Origin: Pleomorphomonas diazotrophica
Lineage (GTDB): Bacteria; Pseudomonadota; Alphaproteobacteria; Rhizobiales; Pleomorphomonadaceae
DNA length: 64,000 nt
Reading direction: 5' to 3'
Assembly (NCBI RefSeq): GCF_002844595.1
Contig: NZ_PJNW01000016.1
Coordinates: 32,827 to 96,826, forward strand
The translations under genes and the position numbers were made by a program. Of the stretch, positions 1 through 16,466 are shown in pieces (the first letter of the stretch is position 1; each line of letters starts with the position of its first letter). The notes beneath the pieces were generated by a model. The model did not search any database, was not told the origin of the DNA, and saw only the letters and a list, made by a program, of their open reading frames with translations.

Positions 1-566
1 AAGCCGCCGCCGCTGATCAGCGACATGCCATGCAGGCGCATGCCGACGTTGATGTGTTCGCGGAGAGCCCTGAAAGTCGCCTCGAAATACTGGTTGTTGG
101 ACGCCTGTGCGATCGCCAGATGGAACGCAAAATCGGCGTCTTCCCGGTGCTGATGGGAGCCCGTCGCCGCGCGCATCAGATCGAGGGCCTGGGCGATCCT
201 GTCGAGCGCCACCTCGTCATGTCGGTCAGCGGCAAGCATGGCTGCCTGCGTTTCGATGGTCAGGCGAAACTCATAGCAGCGCTGGATGTCGGCCAGCGTC
301 TCCACCGGAGAAAACCCGACCGGGGTCGAAATGGCCCCGCGCACATAGCTGCCGGCGCCCTGACGGGAGAGGATCAATCCCTCTTCGCGCAAGCGCTCGA
401 GGGCCGCTCGAAGAACCGGTCTCGAAACGCCGAATTCCTGCGACAGCACGGCCTCCGGCGGCAGCTTCTCGTTCACCTGATACTCGCCGTTGGAGATGCG
501 GCCGAGCAGAGCTTGATAGACGCTGTCTGCCAACGTCGTCCGGCGCCTAGCGCTCTGGTTTGTCAC
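1..566 (-). CDS. GntR/FadR-family transcriptional regulator (C-terminus beyond window)
   Basis: A DNA-binding repressor or activator that probably senses a metabolite of the neighbouring acid-sugar pathway. The 188 visible codons begin with a winged-helix GntR domain (about residues 10-75; recognition region around EFGVSRPVLRAALERLREEG) and continue into an all-helical FCD-type ligand domain (ETQAAMLAADRHDEVAL and AFHLAIAQASNN are typical segments). The start is a GTG at 566; no ATG lies upstream in frame. It follows the acid sugar kinase gene by 88 bp on the same strand and is probably the last gene of that operon. The 3' end lies outside the window, so FCD metal ligands cannot all be checked. 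Family assignment is firm; the effector is unknown. Confidence 0.9.
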   Translation of the reverse strand, partial: MTNQSARRRTTLADSVYQALLGRISNGEYQVNEKLPPEAVLSQEFGVSRPVLRAALERLREEGLILSRQGAGSYVRGAISTPVGFSPVETLADIQRCYEFRLTIETQAAMLAADRHDEVALDRIAQALDLMRAATGSHQHREDADFAFHLAIAQASNNQYFEATFRALREHINVGMRLHGMSLISGGG

Positions 567-654
567 GATCTCTGGCCTCGGGTGATACGGAGGGGGAACC
601 AGAGACAACTAAGCCCAATTTGTAAACTTGTGCAAGCCGATTGGCCGGAAGCGG

Positions 655-1911
655 TCAGGCACTGACACAGCGGGCGTCGATTTCTGTAAGGAGACTGTCA
701 TCGCCGAAGCCGCCGGCTTTCGAAATGAACCATTCGATGCTGCCATCCGGTTGATTGCAGGCTCCGACGACGATACCCGGCAGGATCTCGTCGATGAGAT
801 CGACCGACTCGATGCCCAGGGCTTCGGCAACTGCCATCGATGTGCTGCCGCCGGTCGATACGACCGTCCGGCAAGGCACGAGAGAGCAGATGCTCGCCGT
901 GGCAAGGCCCAGCTTCTCGGCCACCCGCTCGCCATCCTCGCGGGAAATCTTGTCCGGCCGTTCGCCGTCCACCACACGCAACAAAATGTTCGGCTGGCTC
1001 CGGCTGGGATCACTGAGGCGCGTCTCGCAGGCCATGCGGATGTCGGCAGCCGGCGCATCGGAGGAGATATCTATGGTTCGGAACAAGCCGCTCTTGTCAG
1101 CATGTGCGGCCTGGCGGCGAGAGACTTCCGTCAGGCTGCCGACCACCGAGACGATCGGCCGCTGCAACAAGAGCTTGCGCTCTTCGCGGCCCTCCAGCCC
1201 TTCCGGGGCGCAGAGCCGAGCCAACGCTTCGGCCAAACCACCGGCGCCGACCGATAGGAGATCGCCCGCCGCCAGTTGCTGCGCCAGCGCCGCAAGGTGC
1301 CGATCTTCGGTAGCGTCCGCAATGATCAGGCGGATTCCCCGCTCCAGCATGGCAAGAATGGTCCGCCGTAGCGCCGCCTCGCCGGCCTCGATCTCGTTGA
1401 GACCGACGAAGCCGATCGGCAGGTCGGTCTGAAGGCGCAGGAGATCGGCGATACTGGAGCTTGAGAGCGGATGGAAGGGGTCGTGGCCGATATCGCTTTG
1501 ATGCAGCGGAACTCCGTCGAGATAGATCTCCCCGTCGACACAGGTTCGTCCGGTCTTCGGCATGGCGGGGCAGATCAGGGCGGCGGAGAGACCGGTGGCC
1601 GCCAACACGGCTTCGATCTCACTGCCGGGGTTGCCGCGCATTGTGGAGTCGATCTTCTTGAAGATACGGTCGTAACCGGCGGCCCGGCATTGCCGCACCA
1701 TGTCCGACACCACACCCTTCGCCGCGTCGGGATCGAGAAACCGCGTCTCGCTGGTCAGGGCGATATCGATATTATCCCGGCGCTTTCGCGTGAGGGCATC
1801 GATATGAAGTAGAAGCTCCACCTTGCGGCCGAACCTTGCAAAATGAATGCCCGCGTCTCCAGCCCCCGTGTAGTCGTCAGCAATAATTGCGATCTTTTCA
1901 ATTCTTATCAT
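655..1911 (-). CDS. dtnK: four-carbon acid sugar kinase (DUF1537 family, DtnK/OtnK type)
   Basis: An ATP-dependent kinase that phosphorylates C4 sugar acids such as D-threonate, D-erythronate or 3-oxo-tetronate at the 4-hydroxyl. The 418-residue protein has the N-terminal family signature IADDYTGAGDAG (about residues 8-19) and the C-terminal nucleotide-binding segments VVSTGGSTSMAVAEALG and SKAGGFGDDSLL. The ATG at 1911 is preceded by a good AGGAG at 7 bp; the open frame extends 18 codons further without a better start. The companion pdxA2 at the other end of the island is the usual partner, because PdxA2 oxidises and decarboxylates the 4-phospho-tetronate to dihydroxyacetone phosphate. That pairing favours a threonate/erythronate substrate, but the exact isomer is inference. 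Confidence 0.88.
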   Translation of the reverse strand: MIRIEKIAIIADDYTGAGDAGIHFARFGRKVELLLHIDALTRKRRDNIDIALTSETRFLDPDAAKGVVSDMVRQCRAAGYDRIFKKIDSTMRGNPGSEIEAVLAATGLSAALICPAMPKTGRTCVDGEIYLDGVPLHQSDIGHDPFHPLSSSSIADLLRLQTDLPIGFVGLNEIEAGEAALRRTILAMLERGIRLIIADATEDRHLAALAQQLAAGDLLSVGAGGLAEALARLCAPEGLEGREERKLLLQRPIVSVVGSLTEVSRRQAAHADKSGLFRTIDISSDAPAADIRMACETRLSDPSRSQPNILLRVVDGERPDKISREDGERVAEKLGLATASICSLVPCRTVVSTGGSTSMAVAEALGIESVDLIDEILPGIVVGACNQPDGSIEWFISKAGGFGDDSLLTEIDARCVSA

Positions 1912-1954
1912 GACGAGCTCCTGCTCGGATCGGCTTGAGTTCGAGCAAAGACAT

Positions 1955-3028
1955 CTAGGCGGCAAGCGTCACGTGCTTGATGTAATCGCGAAGGTAGGAG
2001 TAGCTGACGTGCACCAGACCATCGTTTGACTGGATAATCGACGGATAGGAGTAGTCGCCGACGAAGGCGCCGCGCTCGTCGTGGGACGAGCGGAGCGTGG
2101 CATCCGCCTCCAGCACCAGATCCTCGCGCCAGGTCAGCCCGAGATCGGTTGAGGTTGCGAGAATGAGGGGATGCCGCGGCACGCCCCAGATGGCGCCGTT
2201 CTCGATGGTCCCGCAGGCGGCAAGGAACGCCTGTCGGTCCTTGATCCAGGGCGGAACGGCACTTTCGCTCGCACGACCGGCGGCGGAGATGTGATTGTAG
2301 ACGATGGCAAGGCGTCCGTCGCTGAGCGAGCGAGCCTGGATGGAAGAGTTGTTGTTGGGCAAGGTAGTGGCCGCCGGTACCGACCAACTCAGCCCGCTAT
2401 CCTCGGAAACACTGCGGAAGATGAAATCGGACTGGCGGCGGCGAAAGAAGGCCACTTGGCAGTTGCCGAGGATGTTCATGTGCACGCATCCCCGGCTGCC
2501 CGGCACCGGCACGATATCCCAGGTGCGCCCACCATCGGCGGACACCTGAACCAAGCTTGAGTCATCACCGAAGGCGTTCCGCATGTCGCTATGCCAGACC
2601 GGCAGGAGCAGCAGGCCGGACGGATTGACCACCGGCGCATGGCGGATGAACGTACCCGGCCGCGCGATGAGATCGACCGTCTTGCTCCACGTCAGCCCGT
2701 TGTCGGCCGACCGCCGCAGGCGGACCACGGCGGTTCCCTGATCTGCCTTGTCCTGCGCGGTATAGAGCAGCCACAGCTCGCCCGCCGGATGCCTGAACAA
2801 CGCCGGATTCTGTTCCGAACGCGTCGCATCGTCCGACATCTTCTCCGGGGCGAGCCAGACATCGCGGCCACGATCGTATCGCGCCATGTAGATGCTGATG
2901 TCGGAAGATCCCTCCATGGAACCGCCGAACCAGACGCAGAGAAGATCGCCGTTGTCGAGCTCCATGAGATTGGAGGCATGATTGCTCACGCAGGGCGTCG
3001 GGATCTTCCTCTCTTGAAGCACTTTCAT
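1955..3028 (-). CDS. sialidase-like (BNR/Asp-box) six-bladed beta-propeller protein
   Basis: A 357-residue protein with four clear Asp-boxes: SADNGLTW, SADGGRTW, SEDSGLSW and STDLGLTW. These mark the blade turns of sialidase-fold propellers (BNR_2-type). It has no signal peptide, so it probably acts in the cytoplasm on an imported substrate. The canonical FRIP motif of GH33 sialidases is not evident, and several lyase and glycosidase families share this fold, so the reaction is not assigned. The start chosen is ATG 3028 (MKVLQERK); an upstream ATG at 3085 would add 19 residues that do not look like family sequence. It sits 43 bp upstream of the acid sugar kinase, in the same operon. Confidence 0.8.
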   Translation of the reverse strand: MKVLQERKIPTPCVSNHASNLMELDNGDLLCVWFGGSMEGSSDISIYMARYDRGRDVWLAPEKMSDDATRSEQNPALFRHPAGELWLLYTAQDKADQGTAVVRLRRSADNGLTWSKTVDLIARPGTFIRHAPVVNPSGLLLLPVWHSDMRNAFGDDSSLVQVSADGGRTWDIVPVPGSRGCVHMNILGNCQVAFFRRRQSDFIFRSVSEDSGLSWSVPAATTLPNNNSSIQARSLSDGRLAIVYNHISAAGRASESAVPPWIKDRQAFLAACGTIENGAIWGVPRHPLILATSTDLGLTWREDLVLEADATLRSSHDERGAFVGDYSYPSIIQSNDGLVHVSYSYLRDYIKHVTLAA

Positions 3029-3196
3029 CGGCGTATTCCCGTTTTCATGTCTTTCAAGTCGCCGCAGCACAACGGTGCTCACCATTTGAGGCGTCGCCGG
3101 AGGGTACTTTTATCAAGCACAGCACTCCTCCCCTCCCGTTCGCCTCTGGCTAGGCTGAACGGGGCGACATCTCGGTCCGGCTGGTCTGTCAGTGGG

Positions 3197-4207
3197 CTAG
3201 GCGGTCTCTTTTTCAATCTCGGCCAGGCGAAGGCAGGCGACCCGATGCCCGCCCCCCTGGTCACTGAGTTCAGGAATCGATTGGGAGCAGATCTCCGTCG
3301 CGTAGGCACAGCGTGGGTGGAACCGGCAACCGGCCGGGGGATCGATGGCGTTCGAAACGTCGCCCTGCAGGATGATGCGCTGGCGCGACCGCTCCAGATC
3401 CGGATCGGCCTCCGGAACGGCCGACAGCAGCGCCTGGGTGTAGGGGTGCATCGGGTGTCCGAACAGGTCATCCTTGGAGGCGATCTCCATGATCTTGCCG
3501 AGATACATCACGGCGACCCGGTCGGAGATGTGCCGAACCACCGCGAGATCGTGGGCGATGAACAGGTAGGTCAGGTTGTATTTTTCCTGGATGTCCATGA
3601 GCAGATTGATGATCTGCGCCTGGATCGACACGTCGAGCGCCGAAATCGGCTCGTCGCAGACAATGAACTCCGGATTGCTGGCCAACGCCCGGGCGATACA
3701 GATACGCTGCCTCTGGCCGCCCGAAAACTCATGCGGATAGCGGTTGGCAACGTTGGGATTGAGGCCGACATCGCGGATCAGCTGGGCGACGCGATGCTGG
3801 ATCTCCTTCTCCTCGCAGATCTTGTGGACCCTCATCGGCTCGGCCAGCGCCTCGCCGATGGTCATGCGCGGATTGAGCGTCGAATAGGGGTCCTGAAAGA
3901 CGATCTGGACCCGCTTGCGCATCGCCCTCAACTGCTTGGTGGGCAGTTGGGCAAGATCGACACCATCGAACTTCACGCTGCCGGAGGTCGCCTTGTGCAA
4001 TTGCAGGAGGGCAAAGCCGGTGGTCGACTTGCCGCATCCCGATTCACCGACAAGGCCCAGCGTTTCGCCCTGATAGATCTCGAAGCTGACGCCGTCGATG
4101 GCGTGAACGACGGCCGACTTGCCGCCAAAGGCCCCGATCTTGACCGGGAAATGCTTGACGAGGTTCTCCACCACGACAAGTGGCTTCTGCTGCGCGCGCG
4201 TGCTCAT
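3197..4207 (-). CDS. Dpp/Opp-type ABC transporter ATP-binding protein (DppF-like)
   Basis: The second ATPase of the importer, energising uptake at the inner face of the cytoplasmic membrane. The 336-residue protein has Walker [10 protein letters not shown], signature SGGQRQR, Walker B FIVCDEP, D-loop SALDVS and H-loop IAHDL. It ends with the oligopeptide-transporter tail carrying the cysteine pattern GCRFHPRCAYATEIC. The start is ATG 4207, which overlaps the stop of the preceding ATPase gene as ATGA, implying translational coupling. Peptides are the classic substrates of this class, but the acid-sugar context suggests an oligosaccharide or sugar-acid conjugate; that is inference. Confidence 0.93.
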   Translation of the reverse strand: MSTRAQQKPLVVVENLVKHFPVKIGAFGGKSAVVHAIDGVSFEIYQGETLGLVGESGCGKSTTGFALLQLHKATSGSVKFDGVDLAQLPTKQLRAMRKRVQIVFQDPYSTLNPRMTIGEALAEPMRVHKICEEKEIQHRVAQLIRDVGLNPNVANRYPHEFSGGQRQRICIARALASNPEFIVCDEPISALDVSIQAQIINLLMDIQEKYNLTYLFIAHDLAVVRHISDRVAVMYLGKIMEIASKDDLFGHPMHPYTQALLSAVPEADPDLERSRQRIILQGDVSNAIDPPAGCRFHPRCAYATEICSQSIPELSDQGGGHRVACLRLAEIEKETA

Positions 4208-5205
4208 TGCTTCACCCCCTTGCCGCGCATGTCGACCCAGCAGGCAACGCGATGCGGCCTTTCCCCCGTCTCGCCCGGAACGGCGGTCAATGCCGGAACT
4301 TCGCTCTGGCAGCGGTCGACCCGATAGGTGCACCGCGGCGCAAAGGGGCAGCCCGTCGGCTGGGAGAACAGGTTGGGCGGCGCGCCGGGGATCGACGGCA
4401 GGCGGCTGCCGGCCTCGGTCTTCAGGCTCGGGATCGATTTCAGGAGACCGATCGTGTAGGGGTGCAGCGGCGACTTGTAGATGTCGTCGAGCACCGCCTC
4501 TTCGACGACGTAACCGCCATACATGACCATGATCCGGTCAACCATGCCCGCCAGCAGGCTGAGGTCATGAGTGATCCAGATGATCGACATGTTGAGCTTT
4601 TCGCGAAGGCTCTTCACCAGCTCGACGATCTGCGCCTGGATGGTCACGTCGAGCGCCGTCGTCGGCTCGTCGGCGATCACCAGGGACGGCTCGTTGAGCA
4701 GCGCCATGGCGATCATCACGCGCTGCCGCATGCCGCCCGACAGTTGGTGGGGATACTCGTTCAGCCGATGCTCGGCGTTGGAAATACCGACCATCTTCAG
4801 ATATTTGGCGGCCTGTTGCAGCGCATCGGCCTTCGTTATCTTCTTGTGATAGACGATGCCCTCGATGAGCTGGTCGCCGATCTTCATGAACGGATTGAGC
4901 GAGGTCATCGGATCCTGGAAGATCATTCCCACCTTGGATCCGCGAATGGCATTGACCCGGCTCACGCTGGCGTGGGTGATGTCCTCCCCGTCAAGCAACA
5001 CTTCGCCTTCGGTGATCTGAGCCGCCGGCGGCAGCAGGCGGATCAGGCTCATCATCGACACGCTCTTGCCGCAGCCCGACTCGCCGACCACGCCAAGCAT
5101 CTCTCCCTTGTCGAGGCTGAACGACACGCCGTTGACGGCATGAAGGTAGCCGTTTCGGACCTTGAAGCGGGTGTGCAGGTTGTTGACTTCCAGGAGCTTG
5201 GCCAC
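4204..5205 (-). CDS. Dpp/Opp-type ABC transporter ATP-binding protein (DppD-like)
   Basis: The first ATPase of the importer (333 residues). It has Walker A GESGCGKS, signature LSGGMRQR, Walker B LVIADEP, D-loop TALDVT, H-loop ITHDL and a cysteine-bearing C-terminal tail ([16 protein letters not shown]). The start is a GTG at 5205 with a strong AGGGAGG ribosome-binding site 5 bp upstream; a longer open frame to 5670 overlaps the permease gene and is not family-like. It should pair with the DppF-like subunit to form the heterodimeric ATPase. The stop overlaps the next gene by four bases. Confidence 0.93.
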
Positions 5206-5237
5206 AGCGCCCTCCCTTGCTTCTTGTTGTTGTGGGC

Positions 5238-6194
5238 TCATTTCCACTGCCGCGGATTGAGGGCGTCGTTCAGGCCGTCGCCGAGGAAGCTGAACGCGAT
5301 GGTGACCACCGCCAGCACCGCCGCCGGCGCCGCAAGGACGTGCGGATAAAGCTGCCAGATGCGCAGGCCATCGCTGATCATGTTGCCCCAGCTCGGAATG
5401 GGCGGGCGCACGCCGACGCCAAGGAAGCTGAAGGAGGATTCCAGCACCATGGCCTCGCCCAGCGCTGCGCTGATGTAGACGATGATCGGACCGATCGCGT
5501 TGGGAATGACGTAGCGCCGGACGATCTTGGAGGTCGGCACACCGAGCGCCTCGGCCGCTACAACATAGTTCTTGTTGCGGATCGACAGGATCTGGCCACG
5601 GATGATGCGAGCCGCCTTCGGCCACTTGATCAGTGCGAGCGAGCCGAACACCAGCACAAAGTCGACCCAAATGGTGTTGCGGTAGAACTCGTTGCCGGTG
5701 GCGACGAACTGGGCGTCCATCCAGTTGACCAGCGGCGGCTTCAGCGACACGTTGATCACGATGACGAGCAGCAGCGACGGGATCGACATGGTGATGTCGA
5801 TCAGCCAGACGATGAAGGCATCGACCTTGCCGCCGAAATATCCGCCGAGCGCGCCCAGGAACAGGCCGATCACCAGACTGAACGATACGGTCGAGAAGCC
5901 GACGATCACCGCGGTCCGCGACCCATAGATGACGCGGCTCAGGATATCGCGCCCGAGGTCGTCGGTGCCGAACCAGTGCTCCCAGGAGGGCGGCTTGTTG
6001 CGCGCCAGGAGATCCTGGCTGAGGAAGTCATAGGGCGTCAGATACGGGCCGAAAATGGCCACGAAGAACAGGAAGACCACAAGCACCATGCCGACGACGG
6101 CCAGGCGGTTGGCAACCAGACGGATGAAGGCGTCCTTGGCCAAGCTGAACTGCTTTTCTTCCTGCGGCAAAAGGAGAGCTTGGTCAGTCATCAT
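5238..6194 (-). CDS. Dpp/Opp-type ABC transporter permease (DppC-like)
   Basis: An inner-membrane permease subunit of 318 residues. An N-terminal OppC_N-type segment and first membrane helix (about residues 30-52) precede the core of five or so further helices. The ATPase-contacting EAA loop reads AAEALGVPTSKIVRRYVIPNA. The start is ATG 6194, immediately followed by a second ATG; GGAGG lies just upstream, inside the end of the preceding permease gene, whose TGA overlaps this start. The gene order SBP-B-C-D-F is the standard importer operon. Confidence 0.93.
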   Translation of the reverse strand: MMTDQALLLPQEEKQFSLAKDAFIRLVANRLAVVGMVLVVFLFFVAIFGPYLTPYDFLSQDLLARNKPPSWEHWFGTDDLGRDILSRVIYGSRTAVIVGFSTVSFSLVIGLFLGALGGYFGGKVDAFIVWLIDITMSIPSLLLVIVINVSLKPPLVNWMDAQFVATGNEFYRNTIWVDFVLVFGSLALIKWPKAARIIRGQILSIRNKNYVVAAEALGVPTSKIVRRYVIPNAIGPIIVYISAALGEAMVLESSFSFLGVGVRPPIPSWGNMISDGLRIWQLYPHVLAAPAAVLAVVTIAFSFLGDGLNDALNPRQWK

Positions 6195-7147
6195 TCATCC
6201 TCCGTCTTCTTCGCGGCGGCGCGGGGATCGAGCAAGGGATAGGAAATGTCCACGAGAAGGTTCGAGGCCATGACTACGACTGAAAAGATCAGAACGATGG
6301 CAAGTATGACCGGGTAGTCCGAAGACTTGATGGCCGTCTCGGTCATGCGCCCAAGACCTGGGAGACCGAACACCTTCTCGATAAGGATCGAATTGTTCAG
6401 CGTGGCGATCACCAGAAGACCGATTTGACTGACGACCGGCGTCAGCACCGGCCGCATGATGTGGCGCATGACCACCTGATAGTTTGGAATGCCTTTGGCC
6501 CTGGCGGTGCGCACATAGTCTTCGCTCAGAACCTCCAGCACACCGGCGCGCGCCTGGCGGATGATCAGCGCCATGGGGTTGAGGCCGATGACGAGAAGCG
6601 GCACGATGACCTTGGGGCTGAACAGGCCGCCCCAGCCGTAAGGGACGTCAAAGTCGAGAACCAAAACGAGAAAGACGGTGATCAGCGGACCGGCGACGAA
6701 CACGGGAATGCCCCAGATGACCAAGGCAAAACCCACGATGAGATTGTCGAGCCACTTGTTCTGGTTGAGGGCCGCGATCACGCCCAGAAGGATTCCGAGC
6801 AGCGACACGAGGACGATCGCCGTGAGGCCGATCTTGAGCGTCACCGGCACTGCCGCGGAAATCATCGCGTTGACCGACCGGCCCGACACCAGCGAATTGC
6901 CGAAATTTCCCTGGGCTACATTCAGAATGTAGTCCCAGAACTGCAAGAGGAACGGCCGGTTGAGGCCGGCCGCCTCGCGAATTGCGTCAACACGTGCCGG
7001 ATCGTAGGCAACATCGCCCGGCGCCTGCAGGAAGATCAGCTTGATGGGGTCGCCTGCACCAAAGAACACCAGTGCATAGACGAGCAGGAGAAGGATGAAA
7101 ACAGATGGTATCCACCTGACAAGTCTATTGATTATATAGCGCCCCAT
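6191..7147 (-). CDS. Dpp/Opp-type ABC transporter permease (DppB-like)
   Basis: An inner-membrane permease subunit of 318 residues from ATG 7147, which has GGAGG 8 bp upstream; an ATG six codons earlier is less well placed. The N-terminus GRYIINRLVRWIPSVFIL with an immediate first membrane helix is typical of DppB. The EAA loop is RTARAKGIPNYQVVMRHIM. It forms the translocation pore with the DppC-like subunit. It lies 193 bp downstream of the binding-protein gene, and the gap contains a stem-loop. Confidence 0.93.
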   Translation of the reverse strand: MGRYIINRLVRWIPSVFILLLLVYALVFFGAGDPIKLIFLQAPGDVAYDPARVDAIREAAGLNRPFLLQFWDYILNVAQGNFGNSLVSGRSVNAMISAAVPVTLKIGLTAIVLVSLLGILLGVIAALNQNKWLDNLIVGFALVIWGIPVFVAGPLITVFLVLVLDFDVPYGWGGLFSPKVIVPLLVIGLNPMALIIRQARAGVLEVLSEDYVRTARAKGIPNYQVVMRHIMRPVLTPVVSQIGLLVIATLNNSILIEKVFGLPGLGRMTETAIKSSDYPVILAIVLIFSVVVMASNLLVDISYPLLDPRAAAKKTEDE

Positions 7148-7168
7148 GGCGTGTTCCTCCGGCAAGTT

Positions 7169-7218
7169 CTGGAGCGTTCGGCTGAACGAAGAGCCGTGCT
7201 GTCAGACAAACGCTCCAG
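7169..7218 (-). promoter_or_regulatory. stem-loop between binding-protein and permease genes
   Basis: A 10-bp inverted repeat (CTGGAGCGTT at 7169-7178 and its complement at 7209-7218) encloses a smaller repeat (CGGCT/AGCCG). No T-run follows on the minus strand, so it is more likely a transcript-stabilising or partial-attenuation hairpin than a full terminator. Such hairpins are common after solute-binding-protein genes, where they leave more binding protein than permease mRNA. Confidence 0.55.
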
Positions 7219-7340
7219 CTTCTTTTTCTTGAGCGACCGCCTTCCGGTCGGGTTGAGCTACCCTAGTCGGCGGACGCTTTGGGCATAGGGGAGCGGGCGA
7301 AGAAATCGCCTCTCAGCCCACCCCCTTTTGGTATTGGTCG

Positions 7341-8951
7341 TTACGGGCGCTTCTCTTCGTCGATGCTGACGTTCCAGGGCTCGATGACCTGCCAGTCGTC
7401 GTTCTTGTCGAAGCTCTGCACCCAGGGCATCGCCCACTTCGACATGACGTCGTAGTAGTAGGGGATATACATCCAGTCCTCGCGGAACAGACGCTGCGCC
7501 TTCTGGGCGTTGCCGATACGGTCCGGGTCGTCGACGCCCTTGACGGAAGCCTCGTCCAGAAGCTTGTCGACCTCGGGGTTCTTGTATCCGCCCATCTTGT
7601 TCAGGGCGTTGCCGGAGCCGGAGTGAATCGAGCCCATCAGGTAGGAGACGGCGTCCGGCACGCGTGTACCGACGTCATCGCGGAAGACCTGAACACTCTT
7701 CTGGTCCGGGCCGGCATAGGTTTCGATGGCCGGCTTCATCTCGGTGCCCTGGATCCCCAGAACCTTGCGCCACTGCTCGGCGATATACTGGGCGGCAGCC
7801 TCGTGGGTCGGCGTCGAGATGCCGACGAACATGATCTTGGGCAGCCGATCGGAGCCCTTGTACTTGGACGCGGCGAGCGCCGCCTTGGCCGCTTCCGGAT
7901 CGTACGTGTACTTGGGATAGTCCGGATCGACGCCGGGCACCTTGTTGAGGATTTGATCGGCGACCGTGAACGGGCCGTCCGGGAAGGCGGCGAGCGCCAG
8001 TTCCTGCGGGTTGACCGACATCGTCAGGGCCTTGCGGACGTTGATGTCGTCCATCGGCGGCTTGGAGGCGTCGAACCAGAACTGCTGGCCCTTGGCGAGC
8101 GCCGGGCCTCCGAGGAAGTCGGCACCGAGATCCTGGATGACCGTCGGCGTAATCAGCTCGGTGGCAGCGTCCATGTCGCCGCGCTGCAGCATCAACGTGG
8201 CGGTGATCGGGTCGGACACCGTGGTGATGACAACCTTCTCGAGCTTGGGTTTCGGCCCGAAGAAGTGGGGGTTCGGCACCAGCGTGACGATGCCCTGGTC
8301 AAGGTCCATGCTCTCGGGCATGAACGGACCGGACACGACGACACCGTTCTCGGGCCGCCACCAGTCGGCCTTCTGTGCGCCGCTCTCGTCCACTGCCTGC
8401 GAAATCTTCACCGGCGGGATCAGCGCGGTGGCAATCTTCTGATCGAAGATCGGATCGGCCGTCGCCAGGGTGACGGTGACGGTCTGATCATCCTTGACGA
8501 CGAGACCTGCCATGTCCTTGGCCTTGCCGACGACCACGTCGTTGAAGCCTTCGACGTCGCCGAGGAACAGGTTGACACGAGCGTGCTTGGTGGCCGGACG
8601 GGCACAGAGATTCCAGGTGCCGACGATGTCCTGCGCCGTGATCTTCGAGCCATCCGAGAAGACGGCCTTGGGGTCAATCGTCAGTGTCCAGGTCTTGAAA
8701 CCTTCGTCATGGGTGGCGCTGGCCAGAACGTAAGGCGTCAGCTTGCCATCCTTGTCGAAATACATCGGCGCCGCCCACCAGAGCGACTGCCAGCGAGCAA
8801 CATGCCCACCACCCTGCAACGGCGACCAGCTCTGCTCGAGGACGGGATGAGCGATGTTCAGCACCTGATCGGCCCACGCGGGCAAACCTGCGGTCGACAA
8901 CGCCGTCGCCGCAAGACCGATCATGAGATATTTCCGGAAGCCCTTCATCAT
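7341..8951 (-). CDS. periplasmic solute-binding protein of Dpp/Opp type (SBP_bac_5)
   Basis: The substrate receptor of the importer, 536 residues. A signal peptide (MMKGFRKYLMIGLAATALST, cleavage probably after AWA at about residue 27) directs it to the periplasm. The body has the features of family-5 binding proteins, for example the ATHDEGFKTWTLTIDPKAVF region and the NVRKALTMSVNPQEL region. The start is the first of two adjacent ATGs at 8951, with GAGGAG 6 bp upstream. It is the first gene behind the sigma-54-type promoter at 9020-9034. The ligand cannot be read from sequence; peptides, nickel and oligosaccharides are all known for this family. Confidence 0.92.
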   Translation of the reverse strand: MMKGFRKYLMIGLAATALSTAGLPAWADQVLNIAHPVLEQSWSPLQGGGHVARWQSLWWAAPMYFDKDGKLTPYVLASATHDEGFKTWTLTIDPKAVFSDGSKITAQDIVGTWNLCARPATKHARVNLFLGDVEGFNDVVVGKAKDMAGLVVKDDQTVTVTLATADPIFDQKIATALIPPVKISQAVDESGAQKADWWRPENGVVVSGPFMPESMDLDQGIVTLVPNPHFFGPKPKLEKVVITTVSDPITATLMLQRGDMDAATELITPTVIQDLGADFLGGPALAKGQQFWFDASKPPMDDINVRKALTMSVNPQELALAAFPDGPFTVADQILNKVPGVDPDYPKYTYDPEAAKAALAASKYKGSDRLPKIMFVGISTPTHEAAAQYIAEQWRKVLGIQGTEMKPAIETYAGPDQKSVQVFRDDVGTRVPDAVSYLMGSIHSGSGNALNKMGGYKNPEVDKLLDEASVKGVDDPDRIGNAQKAQRLFREDWMYIPYYYDVMSKWAMPWVQSFDKNDDWQVIEPWNVSIDEEKRP

Positions 8952-9019
8952 GGATGTCTCCTCTCCACTTGTCATCATCCGTTCCTCAGCGCTCCTCCAG
9001 CGCCTTGGGACTATTAATC

Positions 9020-9034
9020 GCAAACGGCGTGCCA
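9020..9034 (-). promoter_or_regulatory. sigma-54 (-24/-12) promoter of the importer operon
   Basis: Read on the minus strand the sequence is TGGCAC-GCCGT-TTGC, a full match to the TGGCAC-N5-TTGC consensus. It lies 69 bp upstream of the binding-protein start and diverges from a sigma-54 activator gene that carries an intact GAFTGA loop. The combination makes this one of the best-supported regulatory sites in the window. Confidence 0.88.
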
Positions 9035-9039
9035 GACAG

Positions 9040-9089
9040 GTTAAAATACTGAATTTCTTAATCTTTCCCTTGGAGACACGTTAAAACAC
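9040..9089. promoter_or_regulatory. paired direct repeats, candidate enhancer sites for the sigma-54 activator
   Basis: GTTAAAATAC at 9040-9049 and GTTAAAACAC at 9080-9089 are direct repeats exactly 40 bp apart, close to four helical turns. They sit upstream of the -24/-12 promoter and just before the activator gene. The spacing suits two activator dimers on one DNA face. Binding by the neighbouring PrpR-like protein is inference. Confidence 0.5.
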
Positions 9090-9194
9090 GGCATTAGGCG
9101 ATGAAAAATGCCGGCGCGTCCGATGCAATACGCAACAGCGACATCTTGCCTTTCCTTTCAACCGCTCCCATCCTCGACGGTGGGAGGACAATCG

Positions 9195-11072
9195 ATGGCC
9201 ATCGCATTCATTGCGCCGCACGAGCGCATAAGCATCGCTGCCCAGAGCATCGTCGAAGCGACGGGTTATCCTGCCAAGGTCTATCTCGGTGACCTGCAGC
9301 AGGGCGTCAGGGCGGCCCGGCAGGCCCTGGCCGAGGGCGCCAAGATCATCATCAGTCGTGGCGGGACGGCGCGGCTGATCCGCGAGGAACTCGGCGTCGA
9401 GGTCATCGAGGTCGAAGCCTCGGTGCAGCGCACCCTCGCCTATGTCTACAAGGAAACCACGGAAGAAACGAAGATCGCCGTTGCCGGCTTCGAGCCGCTG
9501 ATCAATCTGGTGGCGCCGGTGTGCGATGTCCTCGGCCGCACCTACCGCTCCTTCGAGCTGAAGGAAAAACCCTCCTTCCAGTCGCAGATGGAACAGATTG
9601 CCAAGTGGAACCCGGATGTCGTGATCGGCGACGCCATCGCCTATCACTGGGCTCAGGCAAGGGGCTTTTCCGCCTATCTGATCGAGTCCAGCCTCGAAAC
9701 CCTGCTCGACGCCTTCGAGCGCGCCATGCTGGTCTACAACAATCTCTGTCGTTACATCCTGGCCGAGGAAAAGCTGGCGACGGTGCTCAACTGCTCGCGC
9801 GAAGGCGCCATGCTGGTGAACCGGGAGGGCGTCATCGAGGAGATCAATCGGCAGGGCTGCGACATTCTCTCGCAGTCGAGAGACGAGCTGATCGGCTCCA
9901 CCCTGCCCGAGTATTTCGATAGCGCCGAGCTCATCAAGGCGTTCGGCAAGCACCAGACGGCCCGCAACATGCTGGTCAACTATCGCGAGGAGAAGCTGGC
10001 GCTCGACCACATCACGGTCTCGGCCGGCGACAACGTCAACGGCGCGTCGGTCATCCTGTTCCAGCCCGTCCAGAAGATCCAGGACACCGGCAACGCCATT
10101 CGCCGGAAGCTCGCCGACAGTGGCTTCTATGCCAAGTACACATTCGACGACATCGTCTTTGCCAGCGAGAAGATGCGCCAGTTGGTCGCCGTGGCGAAGC
10201 AATACAGCCAGACCGACAGCAACATCATGATCGTCGGCGAAACCGGCACCGGCAAGGAGCTGTTCGCCCAGTCCATTCACAACGCCGGACCGCTCGCCAA
10301 GGGGCCCTTCGTCGCGGTGAACTGCGCGGCACTGCCCGGCGAACTGCTGGAAAGCGAATTGTTCGGCTATGCGCCGGGCGCCTTCACCGGTGCGTCCCGC
10401 TCGGGCAAGATCGGCCTGTTCGAGCTGGCCCACGAGGGAACGCTGTTTCTCGATGAGCTGACCGAGATGGACTTCTTCCTGCAGTCCAAGTTGCTCCGGG
10501 CGCTGCAAACCCAGGAGATCATGCGCATCGGCGGCAACAGAATCATCCCGATCAAGGTCCGCATCATCGCCACGACCAATAGGAAGCCGCTCGAAGAAAT
10601 CCGCGAGGGGCGCCTGCGCGCCGATCTCTTCTATCGCATCAATACGCTGGACCTGAAGATCCCGCCGCTCCGCGAACGCGAGAGCGATCCCGAAAGGCTG
10701 TTCGAGCTGTTTCTCGCCAAGAAGTGCCAGCGGCGCGGCATTGCCGTTCCCACCGTCCCGGAACAGATCACCTCGCTGCTTCGCCATTACGCGTGGCCGG
10801 GGAACGTCAGAGAGCTCGAAAACTTCGCAGAGAAATACGCGACGCTGCACAGGCTCACGCCCTTCGATGTATCGCTGATCAGCGAGTTCACCGATACTGA
10901 CACGGCGGAGACCGGCGGCGAGGCCGAGGACGGAGCGACGCTCGACGACTTCATCGCCACTAAGGTCAACAAGGTCTTTCGCGCCGAAAACGGCAACGTG
11001 ACACGGACCGCCCAGCGGCTTGGCATCGACCGCAACACCGTCAAGCGCTGGCTGGAAAAGGCGGTGAGCTAA
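9195..11072 (+). CDS. sigma-54-dependent activator with PrpR_N sensor domain
   Basis: A 625-residue enhancer-binding protein. Residues about 1-180 resemble the PrpR N-terminal sensor domain (FIAPHERISIAAQSIVEATG, IISRGGTARLIREELGVEVIE). A PAS-like segment follows (LNCSREGAMLVNREGVIEEINRQG, about 195-225). The AAA+ domain has Walker A GETGTGKE (about 347), the sigma-54-contacting GAFTGA loop (about 395) and Walker B LFLDEL. The C-terminus is a Fis-type helix-turn-helix (NVTRTAQRLGIDRNTVKRWLEK). Start ATG 9195 has GGGAGG 8 bp upstream; an earlier ATG at 9108 gives an unlikely leader. It diverges from the importer operon, whose promoter is of sigma-54 type, so it probably activates that operon in response to a pathway intermediate. 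Confidence 0.93.
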   Translation: MAIAFIAPHERISIAAQSIVEATGYPAKVYLGDLQQGVRAARQALAEGAKIIISRGGTARLIREELGVEVIEVEASVQRTLAYVYKETTEETKIAVAGFEPLINLVAPVCDVLGRTYRSFELKEKPSFQSQMEQIAKWNPDVVIGDAIAYHWAQARGFSAYLIESSLETLLDAFERAMLVYNNLCRYILAEEKLATVLNCSREGAMLVNREGVIEEINRQGCDILSQSRDELIGSTLPEYFDSAELIKAFGKHQTARNMLVNYREEKLALDHITVSAGDNVNGASVILFQPVQKIQDTGNAIRRKLADSGFYAKYTFDDIVFASEKMRQLVAVAKQYSQTDSNIMIVGETGTGKELFAQSIHNAGPLAKGPFVAVNCAALPGELLESELFGYAPGAFTGASRSGKIGLFELAHEGTLFLDELTEMDFFLQSKLLRALQTQEIMRIGGNRIIPIKVRIIATTNRKPLEEIREGRLRADLFYRINTLDLKIPPLRERESDPERLFELFLAKKCQRRGIAVPTVPEQITSLLRHYAWPGNVRELENFAEKYATLHRLTPFDVSLISEFTDTDTAETGGEAEDGATLDDFIATKVNKVFRAENGNVTRTAQRLGIDRNTVKRWLEKAVS

Positions 11073-11162
11073 CGGAAACGGGGACCGGCGCGCCAATCCG
11101 CCCGCCGCTCACCAGGAATCTGGCTGTGGCGGGGGACTGGACGAGATCTGATCAGCCTATCG

Positions 11163-12053
11163 TCAGGCCACGGCCTCGGCGAAGGTCTTCGAGACGAGCG
11201 CCACCTTGTCGTTGACCTCGTCGCTGACGATGGCCGGGCCACGGCTCTTGCCGACCTCCGGCATGGCGAGATAGAGGGCGCGCTTGACCATGGTCGGCGG
11301 GAAGCCATGGGCGTAGAGAGCCTTGCGCAGGTCGCCATAGTGGGCCTGGGCGGCATCCGCGGCGGCTGCATCGCCGGCGACATGGGCGTTCCAGATGGCG
11401 TTCAGCGTCAGCGGGGCGATGTTGCCGAGACCGGAAATGCAGCCGGATGCGCCATTTCTGAGACCATGCAGGATCAAATGGTCCGGGCCGACCAGCACGT
11501 CGAAATTCTTGCGTGACCTGGCAATGGCAAGGAAGCCGTCGAGACTTTCCTCCGAGCCGGCACTGTCCTTGATCCCCACGATATTCGGATGATCAGCCAG
11601 CCGCGCGGCCGTTTCCGGCTCGATCTTGTTCCCAGTGCGAGCAGGTATGTTGTAGAGATACACCGGCACCGACAGCGCATCGGCAACCCGCGTGTAGTGG
11701 GTGATGAGCTCATCCTGCGAGCAGGCGATGAACGAGGGCGCTACCACCGAAACGGCTGCGACACCGAGTTTTTCCACCGCCTTGCCGAGCACGATGGTCT
11801 GATGGGTCGAGATCTCGCCGACGTGGGCGAGCACCGGCACGCGACCGGCGGCGGCCTCGACCGAGGTCTTTGCCACCAGAACCTTCTCCTCGAAGGAGAG
11901 CGTGTAGAACTCGCCGTTGGTGCCGGCGCAGAACACACCGTTGCCGGCGGCCGCCTGCCGCTCGATCTGGCGGGTGAGAGCGGTGACGTTGACCTCCTCG
12001 CGGTCGTCAAACGGCGTGACAATGGCGACGAAGGGGCCCTTGGGGTTGCTCAT
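11163..12053 (-). CDS. DHDPS/N-acetylneuraminate lyase-family aldolase
   Basis: A class I TIM-barrel aldolase of 296 residues. The Schiff-base lysine is K162 in IVGIKDSAGS, the general acid/base tyrosine is Y134 in VYLYNIP, and the carboxylate-binding loop is GTNGEF at 45-50. The family includes dihydrodipicolinate synthase, N-acetylneuraminate lyase and 2-keto-3-deoxy sugar acid aldolases or dehydratases. Given the island, a role in cleaving or dehydrating a 2-keto sugar acid is likelier than lysine synthesis. The start is ATG 12053; the long open frame upstream overlaps the dehydrogenase gene and is a shadow. It is the third gene of the pdxA2 operon, 26 bp after the dehydrogenase. Confidence 0.88.
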   Translation of the reverse strand: MSNPKGPFVAIVTPFDDREEVNVTALTRQIERQAAAGNGVFCAGTNGEFYTLSFEEKVLVAKTSVEAAAGRVPVLAHVGEISTHQTIVLGKAVEKLGVAAVSVVAPSFIACSQDELITHYTRVADALSVPVYLYNIPARTGNKIEPETAARLADHPNIVGIKDSAGSEESLDGFLAIARSRKNFDVLVGPDHLILHGLRNGASGCISGLGNIAPLTLNAIWNAHVAGDAAAADAAQAHYGDLRKALYAHGFPPTMVKRALYLAMPEVGKSRGPAIVSDEVNDKVALVSKTFAEAVA

Positions 12054-12079
12054 GAGGCTTTCCACTTCCGTTGAACGCG

Positions 12080-13222
12080 TCAGAAGGCGGCGCGATAGAT
12101 CGCGAGGATGTCGGCTTCGCCGAGATCGCGCGGGTTGTTGTCGAGAAGGCGCCGGATGGCATGCGCTTCCCTCGCCATGTCGGACAGCGCGCTTTCCGGC
12201 ACACCAAGGGCAGACATGCGCATCTCGCAGCCGAGCTGCACGCACCAATCCCGAGCGGCGGCGAAAACCCTTGCCGGCTCGGAGGAAACGGGCAGACCGA
12301 GGGCCTCCAGTATCGCCGCCGTCCTCTGGGATGTCGCAGGTGCATTGAAGGCAAGCACATGCGGAAAGATCAGCGCGTTGGCCGCACCATGGGCCACATG
12401 GTAGCGCGCACCGAGCGGATAGGACACGGCATGGCCACCGGCCGTATTGACCGGTCCCAGACAATAGCCGCCATAGAGGGACGCCAGCGCCATGCCGGCG
12501 CGGGCCTCTGGATCGTCGAGATCTTGGGCGGCCTTGGCCAGCCAGCGGCCGGCAAGACGAATGCCCTCGAGCGCATAGATGTCGATGAGCGGATGCGCCT
12601 TCTTGTTGGTGAAAGCCTCGACACAGTGTGCGAGCGCGTCGACGCCCGTTGCCACCGTGATCGACCGAGGCATTCCCAGCGCCAGATCGGGGTCGACAAC
12701 GGCCAGATCGGCCAGCATGTGCCGGCTCTGCACCGCACATTTGGCCGCCTTGGCAAGGTCGGTGACCAGCGCCCGCGTCCCCACTTCGCTGCCCGTACCG
12801 GCCGTCGTCGGTACCTGAACGATCGGCAGCTTCTTGCCTGCGACCTTTTCAGGACCGATCACTTCCGAGAAGCTCTGATCGCTCCCCGAGAGAACGCCAA
12901 CCAGCTTGGCAAGATCCATCGAGCTGCCGCCGCCGAAGCCAACCACGGCATCGGCCTTCGCCGCTTCCGCCGCCGCGATGACGCGAGCGAGATCGTCGGT
13001 CGTCGGCTCGCCAGCCAGCTCCCCCCAGACGATCGGATCGCCCGGCAGACCAAGGCTTCCGACGCGGGCGGCATTGAAGGTGTCGGTGACCACCATCGGG
13101 CGGCGGCTGCCGCACTGTTCCAGCCATCGGCCGGCCTCGGCCGCCGTTCCCCGGCCGAAAACCAACCGGGGCGGCTGCATCATGTCGATGGGAGTCGTCA
13201 GCGGGTTCAACGGGGTGATCAC
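12080..13222 (-). CDS. iron-containing alcohol dehydrogenase family protein
   Basis: An NAD(P)-dependent dehydrogenase of 380 residues. The nucleotide-binding glycine loop is VVGFGGGSSMDLAK, followed by VPTTAGTGSEVG. Metal ligands are recognisable in the C-terminal helical domain (VDALAHCVEAFTNKKAHPL and the histidines of NTAGGHAVSYPLG and YHVAHGAANALIFPH). The start is a GTG at 13222 overlapping the pdxA2 TGA as GTGA, indicating translational coupling; an internal ATG pair 13 codons on is the alternative. It may oxidise a hydroxy acid or reduce an aldehyde released by the adjacent aldolase; the substrate is not known. Confidence 0.88.
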   Translation of the reverse strand: MITPLNPLTTPIDMMQPPRLVFGRGTAAEAGRWLEQCGSRRPMVVTDTFNAARVGSLGLPGDPIVWGELAGEPTTDDLARVIAAAEAAKADAVVGFGGGSSMDLAKLVGVLSGSDQSFSEVIGPEKVAGKKLPIVQVPTTAGTGSEVGTRALVTDLAKAAKCAVQSRHMLADLAVVDPDLALGMPRSITVATGVDALAHCVEAFTNKKAHPLIDIYALEGIRLAGRWLAKAAQDLDDPEARAGMALASLYGGYCLGPVNTAGGHAVSYPLGARYHVAHGAANALIFPHVLAFNAPATSQRTAAILEALGLPVSSEPARVFAAARDWCVQLGCEMRMSALGVPESALSDMAREAHAIRRLLDNNPRDLGEADILAIYRAAF

Positions 13223-14265
13223 GATTTGACGCTCCCCTCAAGTCCGGTGATGCGCGTCGCAGCCAGACGTACGGCGTAGTCGATCGCCTCCAGAAGGCTC
13301 AGCTCGTTGGCGATGCCCTTGCCGGCAATGTCGAAGGCCGTGCCATGATCGACCGAGGTGCGGATGATAGGCAGCCCCAGCGTGATGTTGACGCCGGACA
13401 GGGAGTCCCACTTGCCGGTCTTCGGATCGACGTTGAAGCCGAGCAGCTTGACCGGGATATGGCCCTGGTCGTGATACATGGCGATCACCGCGTCGAACTG
13501 GCCGGCATGCAGCTTGACGAACACCGTATCGCCGGGCACCGGTCCAACGACGTCGAGCCCTTCGGCAACGCACTGAGCAATCACCGGCATGCTCACATCG
13601 ATGTCCTGCCGGCCGAAAAGCCCACCCTCGCCGGCATGCGGATTGAGAGCGGCGACGGCTATGCGGCGGCGCGGAAGGCCTAGGCCGGTCAGGGTCTCGG
13701 CCGTGAGGTCGATGACATAACGCAGCCGCTCCGGCGTCAGCTTCTTAGGTACGTCCTCAAGCGCAATGTGCGTGGTGACGTGGCTCACGCGCATATTGCC
13801 GTGGGCCAGCATCATCACCGATCCCTTGGCGCCGGTCAGATGGGCCAGCAGGTCGGTATGTCCGGCGAAGTGGAAGCCGGCCTTGTTCAGCGCTTCCTTG
13901 TTGAGCGGCGCGGTGACGATGCCGTGGATGCGGCCGGCCTTGGCCAATTCGACGGCCTGCTCCACCGCGTGATAGGCGAAGCGGCCGCCATCGGTCGATA
14001 GCACGCCGGGCAGGATGGGCTCCCCTTCGGGGCAGGCCTGAAGTGAGGCAAGCCCCGGCCACTGCCCCATCGCCTGCACGGACGGGATTTCAATTTCGGG
14101 CGCGAAGGTACGGCAGGCCCGGTTGAGCGCATCGTTCGAACCGATGACCAGGAGACGCAGCTCATCCGAATCAAGGCGCGGCTTCAGCGCTTTGCAAGCC
14201 TTGGCGATGATCTCGGGGCCGACGCCGGCCGGGTCGCCCATGGTGATGGCTAGATGTGGGATCAA
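13219..14265 (-). CDS. pdxA2: PdxA2-like 4-phospho-tetronate dehydrogenase
   Basis: A 348-residue member of the PdxA family, which oxidises and decarboxylates 4-phosphorylated C4 acids with NAD. Seen are the N-terminal MGDPAGVGPEI motif and the metal-binding histidines in FHFAGHTDLL and MYHDQGHIPVK. True PdxA serves pyridoxal phosphate synthesis, but association with a DUF1537 kinase marks the PdxA2 branch that makes dihydroxyacetone phosphate from 4-phospho-D-threonate or -erythronate. The start appears to be TTG at 14265 with GAGAGGAG upstream; the next in-frame ATG is within the conserved MGDPAG motif and would truncate the protein. It is the first gene of its operon. Confidence 0.88.
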   Translation of the reverse strand: MIPHLAITMGDPAGVGPEIIAKACKALKPRLDSDELRLLVIGSNDALNRACRTFAPEIEIPSVQAMGQWPGLASLQACPEGEPILPGVLSTDGGRFAYHAVEQAVELAKAGRIHGIVTAPLNKEALNKAGFHFAGHTDLLAHLTGAKGSVMMLAHGNMRVSHVTTHIALEDVPKKLTPERLRYVIDLTAETLTGLGLPRRRIAVAALNPHAGEGGLFGRQDIDVSMPVIAQCVAEGLDVVGPVPGDTVFVKLHAGQFDAVIAMYHDQGHIPVKLLGFNVDPKTGKWDSLSGVNITLGLPIIRTSVDHGTAFDIAGKGIANELSLLEAIDYAVRLAATRITGLEGSVKS

Positions 14266-14756
14266 CGGGTGGCTCCTCTCGTGTCCGGAAAGCGGACGCT
14301 GCCGGTAAACGTCGGAAAGAGAAGGGACGAACTGTCTCGGTTGACGCGCCGCGACGCTTTGCAGCCATCACCGCCCCTCACGCGACGTATCGACTGGCAC
14401 GCCACGGGCCTCTCTCCCAACCCCAGAAGGCGCGCCATTTGGCCACTTGTCAATATGTTGTCACATGATTTGTATTTAAGCGTAGACAGAAGGGCATCAC
14501 GCCCTCATTCACCAACTTATCTATACCAACGATATCAATGCAGTACCCGAACAGCGCCAAATCCACGCTCTGATCTGAATCCAGAGAGACGACGGACACG
14601 CTTTGCCACGTTCGTTTCTGACTATCCAAAATATGGGTTTATCCGTTCATATTCAATTATTTACCAGATTCATCAAACACAGCCTCAGCACGCCGCTATC
14701 GCAAGTTAACAACTTTCATGATGAACTTACAACTTAATGACATATTCTGAACGGTG
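14266..14756. other. 491-bp AT-rich intergenic region with operator-like palindromes
   Basis: I see no gene here. From about 14440 the base composition falls well below the surrounding GC-rich DNA. ATGT-TGTC-ACAT at 14455-14466 contains the GT-N-AC core seen in FadR-subfamily operators and could be the site for the GntR regulator at the left edge, upstream of pdxA2. AAGTT-AAC-AACTT at 14703-14715 is a second inverted repeat, ahead of the broken isomerase gene. No convincing -24/-12 site faces pdxA2. Confidence 0.5.

Positions 14757-16389: not shown

Positions 16390-16390
<1 letters not shown>
16352..16390. terminator. bidirectional terminator between the dehydrogenase gene and tRNA-fMet
   Basis: A perfect 12-bp stem (16357-16368 pairing with 16372-16383, 3-base loop) is flanked by an A-run on the left and CTATTTT on the right. 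It can end the dehydrogenase transcript on the plus strand and the tRNA transcript on the minus strand. Confidence 0.88.

Positions 16391-16466
<76 letters not shown>

Follow-up and report, generated by a model that had tools for sequence, protein, structure and literature searches.

The first 14,265 positions of the 64,000-nucleotide stretch of the Pleomorphomonas diazotrophica genome analysed here (the window, from contig NZ_PJNW01000016.1) carry a gene cluster in which enzymes of putative acid-sugar catabolism are combined with an ABC importer and two regulatory genes. The genes form three units: pdxA2-feADH-dapA on the minus strand, an activator gene on the plus strand, and a minus-strand unit encoding a solute-binding protein (SBP), a DppBCDF-type importer, a sialidase-fold propeller protein, a DUF1537 kinase and a GntR/FCD regulator. 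This gene set had been named in a sequence-only reading of the stretch, and all its members are open frames with the expected family matches. In the first unit, PdxA2 (13219-14265; PF04166, 342 bits; TIGR00557, 351 bits versus a cut-off of 290) is followed by an iron-containing alcohol dehydrogenase (Fe-ADH; 12080-13222; PF00465 and PF25137) and a DapA-like class I aldolase (11163-12053; PF00701, 196 bits) with the motifs GTNGE, YNIPART and GIKDS. The activator (9108-11072) combines a PrpR_N domain (PF06506, 108 bits), a PAS-like region and a sigma-54 AAA+ domain (PF00158, 213 bits), and has GAFTGA in its translation. The third unit starts with the SBP of family 5 (7341-8951; PF00496, SBP_bac_5, 191 bits), which has a signal peptide by eye, and continues with the DppB-type (6191-7147; PF00528, BPD_transp_1) and DppC-type permeases (5238-6194; PF00528 and PF12911, OppC_N), and the DppD-type (4204-5205) and DppF-type ATPases (3197-4207), both with PF00005 and PF08352 (oligo_HPY), the latter also matching PRK11308 of NCBIfam (410.9 versus a cut-off of 408). 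The propeller protein (1955-3028; BNR_2, PF13088, 211 bits) has no visible signal peptide. It is followed by the kinase (655-1911) and by the GntR/FCD gene (3-608; PF00392, 69.5 bits; PF07729, 54.5 bits), which runs off the left edge of the window; the whole gene, in the left flank (L002:14644-15435), encodes 263 amino acids, probably a second regulator.

The kinase carries both DUF1537 domains above cut-off, the N-terminal sugar-binding one (PF07005, 186.8 bits) and the C-terminal nucleotide-binding one (PF17042, 61.9 bits). Its best NCBIfam model is that of the D-threonate kinase DtnK (NF047819) with 232 bits, below the cut-off of 450, followed by 3-oxo-tetronate kinase with 155 bits; for the cluster kinases of three loci described below this model is likewise the best, again below 450 (L212, 329; L036, 224; L113, 209). 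The closest six matches of the window kinase, which are 77-85% identical, come from four Pleomorphomonas records and two records of metagenome-assembled genomes (MAGs) labelled Proteobacteria bacterium. PdxA2 belongs to the PdxA superfamily, but reaches 292 bits against a cut-off of 583 for D-threonate 4-phosphate dehydrogenase (NF002891); the PdxA2 of a Pantoea cluster passes this model (668), and four other cluster PdxA2 proteins scanned fail it (304-382). The aldolase, previously described as NanA/DHDPS-type, is indeed a member of the DHDPS family, but lies under the curated cut-offs of both DapA (TIGR00674, 196.3 versus 206) and NanA (PRK04147, 130.5 versus 281). No NCBIfam model attains its cut-off with Fe-ADH (best, ErcA, 230.9 of 550), the SBP scores 34 bits to the DppA model NF043070 (cut-off 1005), and by curated cut-offs the activator is neither PrpR (TIGR02329, 294.9 versus 499.2) nor PrdR (335.6 versus 795). 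The window genome (G000) has a second, housekeeping-like PdxA (C1:67978) and three DHDPS-family genes (on contigs C8, C11 and C22), two of them scoring above the cluster copy, and for this reason the PdxA and DHDPS-family copies of the cluster look accessory.

The cluster is a real unit and not a product of chance proximity alone. Four relatives (L003, L004, L006 and L008) retain gene order and strand between the activator gene and gntR, and pdxA2-feADH-dapA precedes this stretch in L236; L236 and L237 match the contigs of L006 and L008 in length and are apparently identical to them, and so do not count as independent. SBP identity is 89-96% in four relatives and 81-83% in g73, a genus of another family. 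Among seven genomes of the window's genus, the propeller and one DUF1537 gene occur together in G000, G454 and G474, and neither is present in G431, G494, G528 and G543; the latter four have one PdxA copy, and G000 and G454 have two (G474 is outside this count). The aldolase-to-SBP stretch spans about 7 kb in the G474 contig (L237, 2176-9287) versus about 2.2 kb in L236, so that about 5 kb seems to have been inserted. In the Rhizobiales, the order of the window genome, 33 of 297 genomes have a propeller homologue, and a DUF1537 gene lies within 11 kb of it in 21 of the 23 of these that were checked, which have 56 DUF1537 copies altogether. We fetched 20 Rhizobiales propeller loci and searched them by tblastn (E 1e-10): all four enzymes (aldolase, Fe-ADH, kinase and PdxA2) are present in nine and at least three in 13, and a GntR/FCD homologue is found in 11. 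On pRL9 of Rhizobium johnstonii and pAt of Agrobacterium fabrum the set carries gene-by-gene annotation, and on pSymB of Sinorhizobium meliloti it is present unannotated. Since gene orders and carriers vary among the Rhizobiales loci, selection appears to keep the enzymes together.

The importer deserves separate consideration. With its family 5 SBP and Dpp/Opp-type ATPases it might take up peptides and adjoin an acid-sugar operon merely by chance. Going by gene numbering, which gives an estimate only, we place smb20141 and smb20142 of S. meliloti 1021 pSymB (L233) in this cluster. A transcriptome study at acid pH (PMC2651895) discusses both genes as Dpp-like and assigns them to its cluster G. 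However, the importer lies in one strand-run with the propeller and kinase genes in L003, L004, L006, L008 and four g73 loci, it adjoins the same enzymes on pRL9, and on an Anaerolineae contig an importer of 50-65% identity adjoins Fe-ADH and the kinase. Of the explanations considered here, uptake of peptides by an unrelated neighbour is the one to which we give least credit.

Comparison of gene neighbourhoods, proposed as a check in the sequence-only reading, showed that the enzymes co-cluster in reshuffled order in the Rhizobiales, in relatives of Paenibacillus (the Paenibacillus family, i.e., the family of G004, contig Paenibacillus sp. Root444D2) and in the Opitutales (the order of G010, an Ereboglobus contig), and in Pantoea without the kinase. 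In locus L212 of the Paenibacillus family, the order is kinase, PdxA2, Fe-ADH, propeller, CitMHS carrier, aldolase and PrpR_N activator, which is the window's set with a different carrier. A Pantoea plasmid (L235) has Fe-ADH, aldolase, propeller and PdxA2 together with an SSF symporter and YhcH. Thus, the Dpp-type importer that had been counted in the set holds for this lineage, but the type of importer lies outside the core because other lineages pair the enzymes with CitMHS or SSF carriers. The four enzymes also occur together in the distant loci L015, L034, L036 and L043 retrieved with the kinase. In L015 they adjoin genes of glycoside hydrolase (GH) families GH95 and GH78 (two) and of an alpha-L-fucosidase, and in L103 an oligogalacturonate lyase gene lies beside the propeller gene; we count both among the points in favour of the pectin substrate proposed below.

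Some further features of these loci are worth recording. The YhcH/YjgK/YiaL gene (PF04074) follows the propeller gene on the Pantoea plasmid (12091-12561), and NanQ-type members of this family are sialic acid anomerases; it could provide an extra step on the substrate proposed below. In L036 (9998-18454), from a rumen Aeromonadales MAG, the order is kinase, PdxA2, aldolase and Fe-ADH with no propeller match; judged by eye, the locus further holds carrier genes of TctA/TctC-like type and a gene resembling that of a 2-hydroxyacid dehydrogenase. In the Paenibacillus family, a GH95-propeller-propeller run recurs (L213-L222, L230 and L231); the propellers in it belong to two subtypes separated by a few kb, and in most of these genomes the run lies 11-17 kb from the aldolase gene. 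In the loci L010-L031, mostly of Bacilli, there are many pairs of DUF1537 and PdxA2 genes that are preceded by a homologue of the activator (22-26% identity along most of the protein) and have neither an aldolase nor a propeller match within reach, which corresponds to a simpler C4-acid module.

That such pairs are common in Bacilli loci, and that a DUF1537 kinase acts on 4-hydroxythreonine (PMC10971088), would fit a scenario in which the window's kinase and PdxA2 serve threonate or erythronate use, or vitamin B6 (4-hydroxythreonine) salvage, and in which aldolase, Fe-ADH and propeller have some other, unrelated role. We regard this as extremely unlikely: the five-gene association recurs, reshuffled, in several lineages, which neutral proximity does not explain.

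Based on these data, we consider it probable that the cluster serves to take up and degrade 3-deoxy-D-lyxo-hept-2-ulosaric acid (Dha), an acidic sugar in side chain D of the pectin rhamnogalacturonan II (RG-II). What was observed are the genes, their repeated clustering, their link with GH143/GH142 (see below) and a promoter-like site that is conserved; each catalytic step and the regulation are inferred from sequence. Most likely, the substrate would be imported as a small Dha glycoside by the Dpp-type importer, after which the propeller protein, a predicted cytosolic Dha ketosidase, would cut the ketosidic bond to give free Dha. The aldolase, as a predicted Dha aldolase, would then cleave Dha, giving pyruvate and threuronate (2,3-dihydroxy-4-oxobutanoate), a C4 aldehyde acid, and Fe-ADH, as a threuronate reductase, would convert the aldehyde to D-threonate. 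The kinase is predicted to phosphorylate D-threonate to D-threonate 4-phosphate, and PdxA2, a predicted D-threonate 4-phosphate dehydrogenase (decarboxylating), to oxidise and decarboxylate this to dihydroxyacetone phosphate and CO2. The earlier proposal that an imported acidic glycoside is processed by propeller and aldolase before entering a C4 branch is thereby supported, through the repeated co-clustering in several lineages, and sharpened to one substrate.

The stereochemistry is consistent with this view. Dha is HOOC-CO-CH2-CHOH-CHOH-CHOH-COOH, and a class I pyruvate aldolase cutting at C3-C4 gives pyruvate and OHC-CHOH-CHOH-COOH, reduction of whose aldehyde yields threonate or erythronate. 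In our hand derivation, the D-lyxo configuration of Dha (Fischer projection: C4 left, C5 left and C6 right) places C5 and C6 of Dha at C3 and C2 of the product; when the C4 fragment is inverted to make C7 the new C1, C2 points left and C3 right, as in D-threonate (2S,3R). The stereocentres of Dha thus yield exactly D-threonate, which matches a known substrate of the DUF1537 family. PdxA2 completes the route from D-threonate to dihydroxyacetone phosphate, and the D-threonate pathway with DtnK (DUF1537) and PdxA2 was reportedly described by Zhang et al. in 2016. PMC10971088, which cites that work, names DtnK as a DUF1537 kinase acting on D-threonate. As for the source, Dha and 3-deoxy-D-manno-oct-2-ulosonic acid (Kdo) are placed in side chains D and C of RG-II, respectively, and a beta-1,5-linked arabinofuranose ends chain D (PMC12282258); in plants, both sugars are reported from RG-II only (PMC12168206).

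A sialidase fold beside an aldolase of the NanA-like family could also indicate sialic acid or Kdo catabolism, in which case the propeller would act as a sialidase and the role of NanA or Kdo aldolase would fall to the DapA-like protein. Public records annotate propeller homologues as exo-alpha-sialidase, the window genome has NanE elsewhere, and YhcH lies beside the Pantoea cluster. But the aldolase reaches 130 bits against the NanA cut-off of 281, NanE lies on contig C6 and the DHDPS-family genes on C8, C11 and C22, of which the C22 copy could be NanA. Moreover, cleavage of Kdo or N-acetylneuraminic acid gives arabinose or N-acetylmannosamine (ManNAc), neither of which requires a C4-acid kinase and PdxA2. 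We therefore consider this alternative very unlikely; sialic acids and uronic-acid oligomers, both earlier suggested for growth tests without one substrate being singled out, do not account for the C4 kinase/PdxA2 pair. The supposed absence of NanE was dropped as an argument against sialic acid because the genome has the gene (C6:202021-202587, L238); it lies near a sugar-type ABC importer, as judged by eye, on a contig without a DHDPS-family gene.

The proposal of Dha as the substrate draws further support from the association of the enzymes with homologues of BT1020 of Bacteroides thetaiotaomicron. We take the N-terminal and C-terminal halves of this protein to belong to GH143 and GH142, respectively. 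The N-terminal propeller is represented by the Pfam model PF24067, and GH143 was created for an enzyme that cleaves Dha from RG-II (PMC6811678). Counting weak matches, PF24067 is found in three of an initial 18 genomes, 21 of 132 Opitutales genomes and 19 of 104 Paenibacillus-family genomes; the propeller of L034 matches it weakly (29.4 bits versus a cut-off of 27). Among 40 neighbourhoods fetched (27 of strong and 13 of weaker matches, several on contigs shorter than 10 kb), five combine PF24067 with all four enzymes, namely L113 of the Paenibacillus family, where the kinase gene is again followed by one for a GntR/FCD protein, and L130-L133 of the Opitutales, with a partial kinase match in L132. 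All five are strong matches, and no full set was found in the 13 weaker neighbourhoods. In L043, the Ereboglobus locus from the kinase search, a GH143-like gene likewise accompanies all four enzymes. The aldolase is present in the PF24067 loci L103, L104, L106, L108 and L139, in L104 together with Fe-ADH. The protein of L113 matches the whole N-terminal half of BT1020 (5MQR 28-611, 425 bits), that of L043 scores 168 bits, and L131 has, as separate genes, the GH142 half (538 bits), a GH143 homologue, an SSF symporter and the four enzymes.

Propeller and GH143 seem to be interchangeable in the Paenibacillus family, since its aldolases are 58-66% identical between GH143 loci (L113, L106 and L104) and propeller loci (L212 and L229) and both proteins appear to lack a signal peptide. 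By eye, none is present in GH143 of L113, L104 and L103 or in the propeller homologues with a judgeable start, so that a cytosolic role is possible for either protein in this family; GH143 of the Opitutales loci L131 and L133 looks secreted, again by eye. Across the 104 Paenibacillus-family genomes, the aldolase subfamily (>250 bits) occurs in 32, a strong propeller (>200 bits) in 27 and a strong GH143 in 13. The aldolase is accompanied by propeller or GH143 in 30 genomes and stands alone in two, GH143 stands alone in three, and 69 have neither (Fisher p 2e-20, a value that is descriptive only because the cut-offs were set once the data had been seen and relatedness among the genomes was ignored). 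In one of the two aldolase-alone genomes, G226, the propeller match comes in two pieces, each below the cut-off. The aldolase is present in every one of the 27 genomes with a strong propeller. Of the 32 genomes that have the aldolase, 26 carry a propeller or GH143 gene no more than 40 kb away from it.

It should be noted that the same pathway logic could apply to some other diacid of the 3-deoxy-ulosaric or a related type, for example from an algal or bacterial surface polysaccharide, with the propeller cutting that glycoside. The window has a sialidase-fold protein and not GH143, one propeller homologue is found in Sinorhizobium sp. RAC02, an isolate from an algal phycosphere, and the aldolase subfamilies differ between loci. 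On the other hand, a single aldolase subfamily serves both types of loci in the Paenibacillus family. Furthermore, of 72,556 plasmid records, the 298 with a propeller homologue are mainly of Rhizobium, Sinorhizobium, Pantoea and Agrobacterium, which are plant-associated genera; records of Klebsiella pneumoniae and Enterococcus are also among those listed. A different diacid is in our view unlikely, and Dha remains the preferred substrate.

The predicted activity of the propeller is the weakest step of the proposed pathway. The protein has the sialidase propeller fold, and its family match is BNR_2, not PF24067. An alignment of 25 members shows H18, E40, D44, R130, R197, R199, R286, Y329 and R348, among others, to be invariant; the catalytic set of GH33-type sialidases comprises an Arg triad, an Asp and a Tyr/Glu pair, and the sequence matches to sialidases are local. 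A profile search against 5MQR gave only a local match (19.9 bits), and GH143 is not among the 50 matches listed for the propeller model, which excludes nothing.

Several other observations weigh against the pathway as proposed. The window's kinase, PdxA2 and aldolase all score under the cut-offs of the specific models, and the L131 kinase matches no NCBIfam model at E 1e-30. Only two of the enzymes are present in five of the 20 Rhizobiales propeller loci and none in two, and no kinase was found within the 23 kb fetched of the Pantoea plasmid. The full set is missing from 35 of the 40 PF24067 neighbourhoods, including 22 of the 27 strong ones (some contigs being shorter than 10 kb), and the window genome has no match to PF24067, the one pectin-enzyme model searched there. 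Retention of the propeller in loci with CitMHS (L212) or SSF (L235) carriers fits an imported glycoside less well. In addition, the window aldolase is 52-72% identical to those of the propeller loci L196, L205 and Pantoea and 35-40% identical to the Paenibacillus-family ones, and the Opitutales and R. johnstonii aldolases are more distant (22-32%), so that at least three aldolase subfamilies fill this slot. Finally, the Arg of YNIPART is absent from four Opitutales aldolases, the R. johnstonii-type Rhizobiales ones and two of the three aligned g73 ones; because just some aldolases keep it, the active-site argument is not general, and we rejected this residue as a general mark of a carboxylated aldehyde product.

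Regulation by sigma-54, as the sequence-only reading had it, is supported for one of the two operons. The activator has the traits of its class, including the AAA+ interaction domain, and a candidate -24/-12 target, TGGCACGCCGTTTGCG (9019-9034), lies on the minus strand (9034-9019) with its end 68 bases upstream of the start codon of the SBP gene. The GG and GC of the site are conserved in the window and four relatives, and sites with 10-11 of 11 consensus bases lie upstream of the SBP gene in all four g73 genomes fetched. The window as a whole contains no excess of the pattern (25 matches versus 24.8 expected with up to two mismatches), and the support for the site comes only from its position and conservation. 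Most likely, the PrpR_N activator switches on the importer-propeller-kinase operon from this putative promoter. No such site was found before pdxA2, either in the window (14250-14900) or on the correct strand upstream of pdxA2 in L236; L237 stops short of this region. The pdxA2 operon is therefore probably under another promoter, which may be controlled by the GntR protein.

As to the genomic context, GC content is 0.60-0.64 in the cluster versus 0.62-0.66 in the adjacent 15 kb, which gives no clear foreign signature. A tRNA-Met gene (16390-16466, minus strand) 2 kb off the cluster end could mark an insertion edge, as not all genomes of the genus carry the cluster. A Gfo/Idh/MocA-type oxidoreductase gene (15125-16306, plus strand) is divergent from pdxA2, with no homologue reported beside the fetched clusters. 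By eye, the left flank (L002, 5078-13702) contains more sugar-type ABC importers, a LacI-type regulator and an NAD-dependent epimerase-like gene similar to that of uronate dehydrogenase.

The enzyme families are known, and as far as our searches went, the assembled pathway and its substrate, both predictions, are apparently undescribed: no description of either was found in the limited open-access literature searched, in line with the earlier statement that no described pathway has exactly this set. We see about an even chance that the cluster represents the first complete pathway for Dha after its release, present in rhizobia, Paenibacillus, Pantoea and Opitutales, that it is the natural source of D-threonate, and that the cytosolic "exo-alpha-sialidase" founds a new family of Dha-ketoside glycosidases replacing GH143. 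If verified, this would explain both bacterial use of Dha after GH143 release and the origin of natural D-threonate, and would correct the exo-alpha-sialidase annotation on many rhizobial plasmids. It would also supply enzymes and a sensor for Dha, a sugar short of standards according to PMC12168206. The presence of the set on plasmids of R. johnstonii 3841 and S. meliloti 1021 makes the prediction directly testable there.

In comparison with known systems, the cluster shares with the D-threonate pathway the kinase and PdxA2 families and the predicted conversion of D-threonate to dihydroxyacetone phosphate; it differs in the added upstream branch of importer, propeller, aldolase and Fe-ADH, which would produce D-threonate from a C7 diacid, and in having proteins that score under the curated-model cut-offs. 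Sialic acid (nan) catabolism follows the same logic, in that a sialidase-fold ketosidase precedes a DHDPS/NAL class I aldolase that gives pyruvate, but the other product predicted here is a C4 aldehyde acid instead of ManNAc, and no NanE or NanK is encoded among the cluster genes. The activator has the PrpR_N sensor (PF06506), the AAA+ domain, the divergent position and the -24/-12 site in common with PrpR/PrdR-type activators, but its scores are below both cut-offs and the cluster lacks propionate genes. Finally, the predicted substrate is the same as that of BT1020 (GH143-GH142), which acts on side chain D of RG-II, and homologues of both halves of that protein adjoin the same catabolic enzymes in other bacteria. 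The BT1020 enzymes release Dha only, whereas the window, which has no GH143, encodes a protein of another family in its place and, in addition, the predicted steps that follow release.

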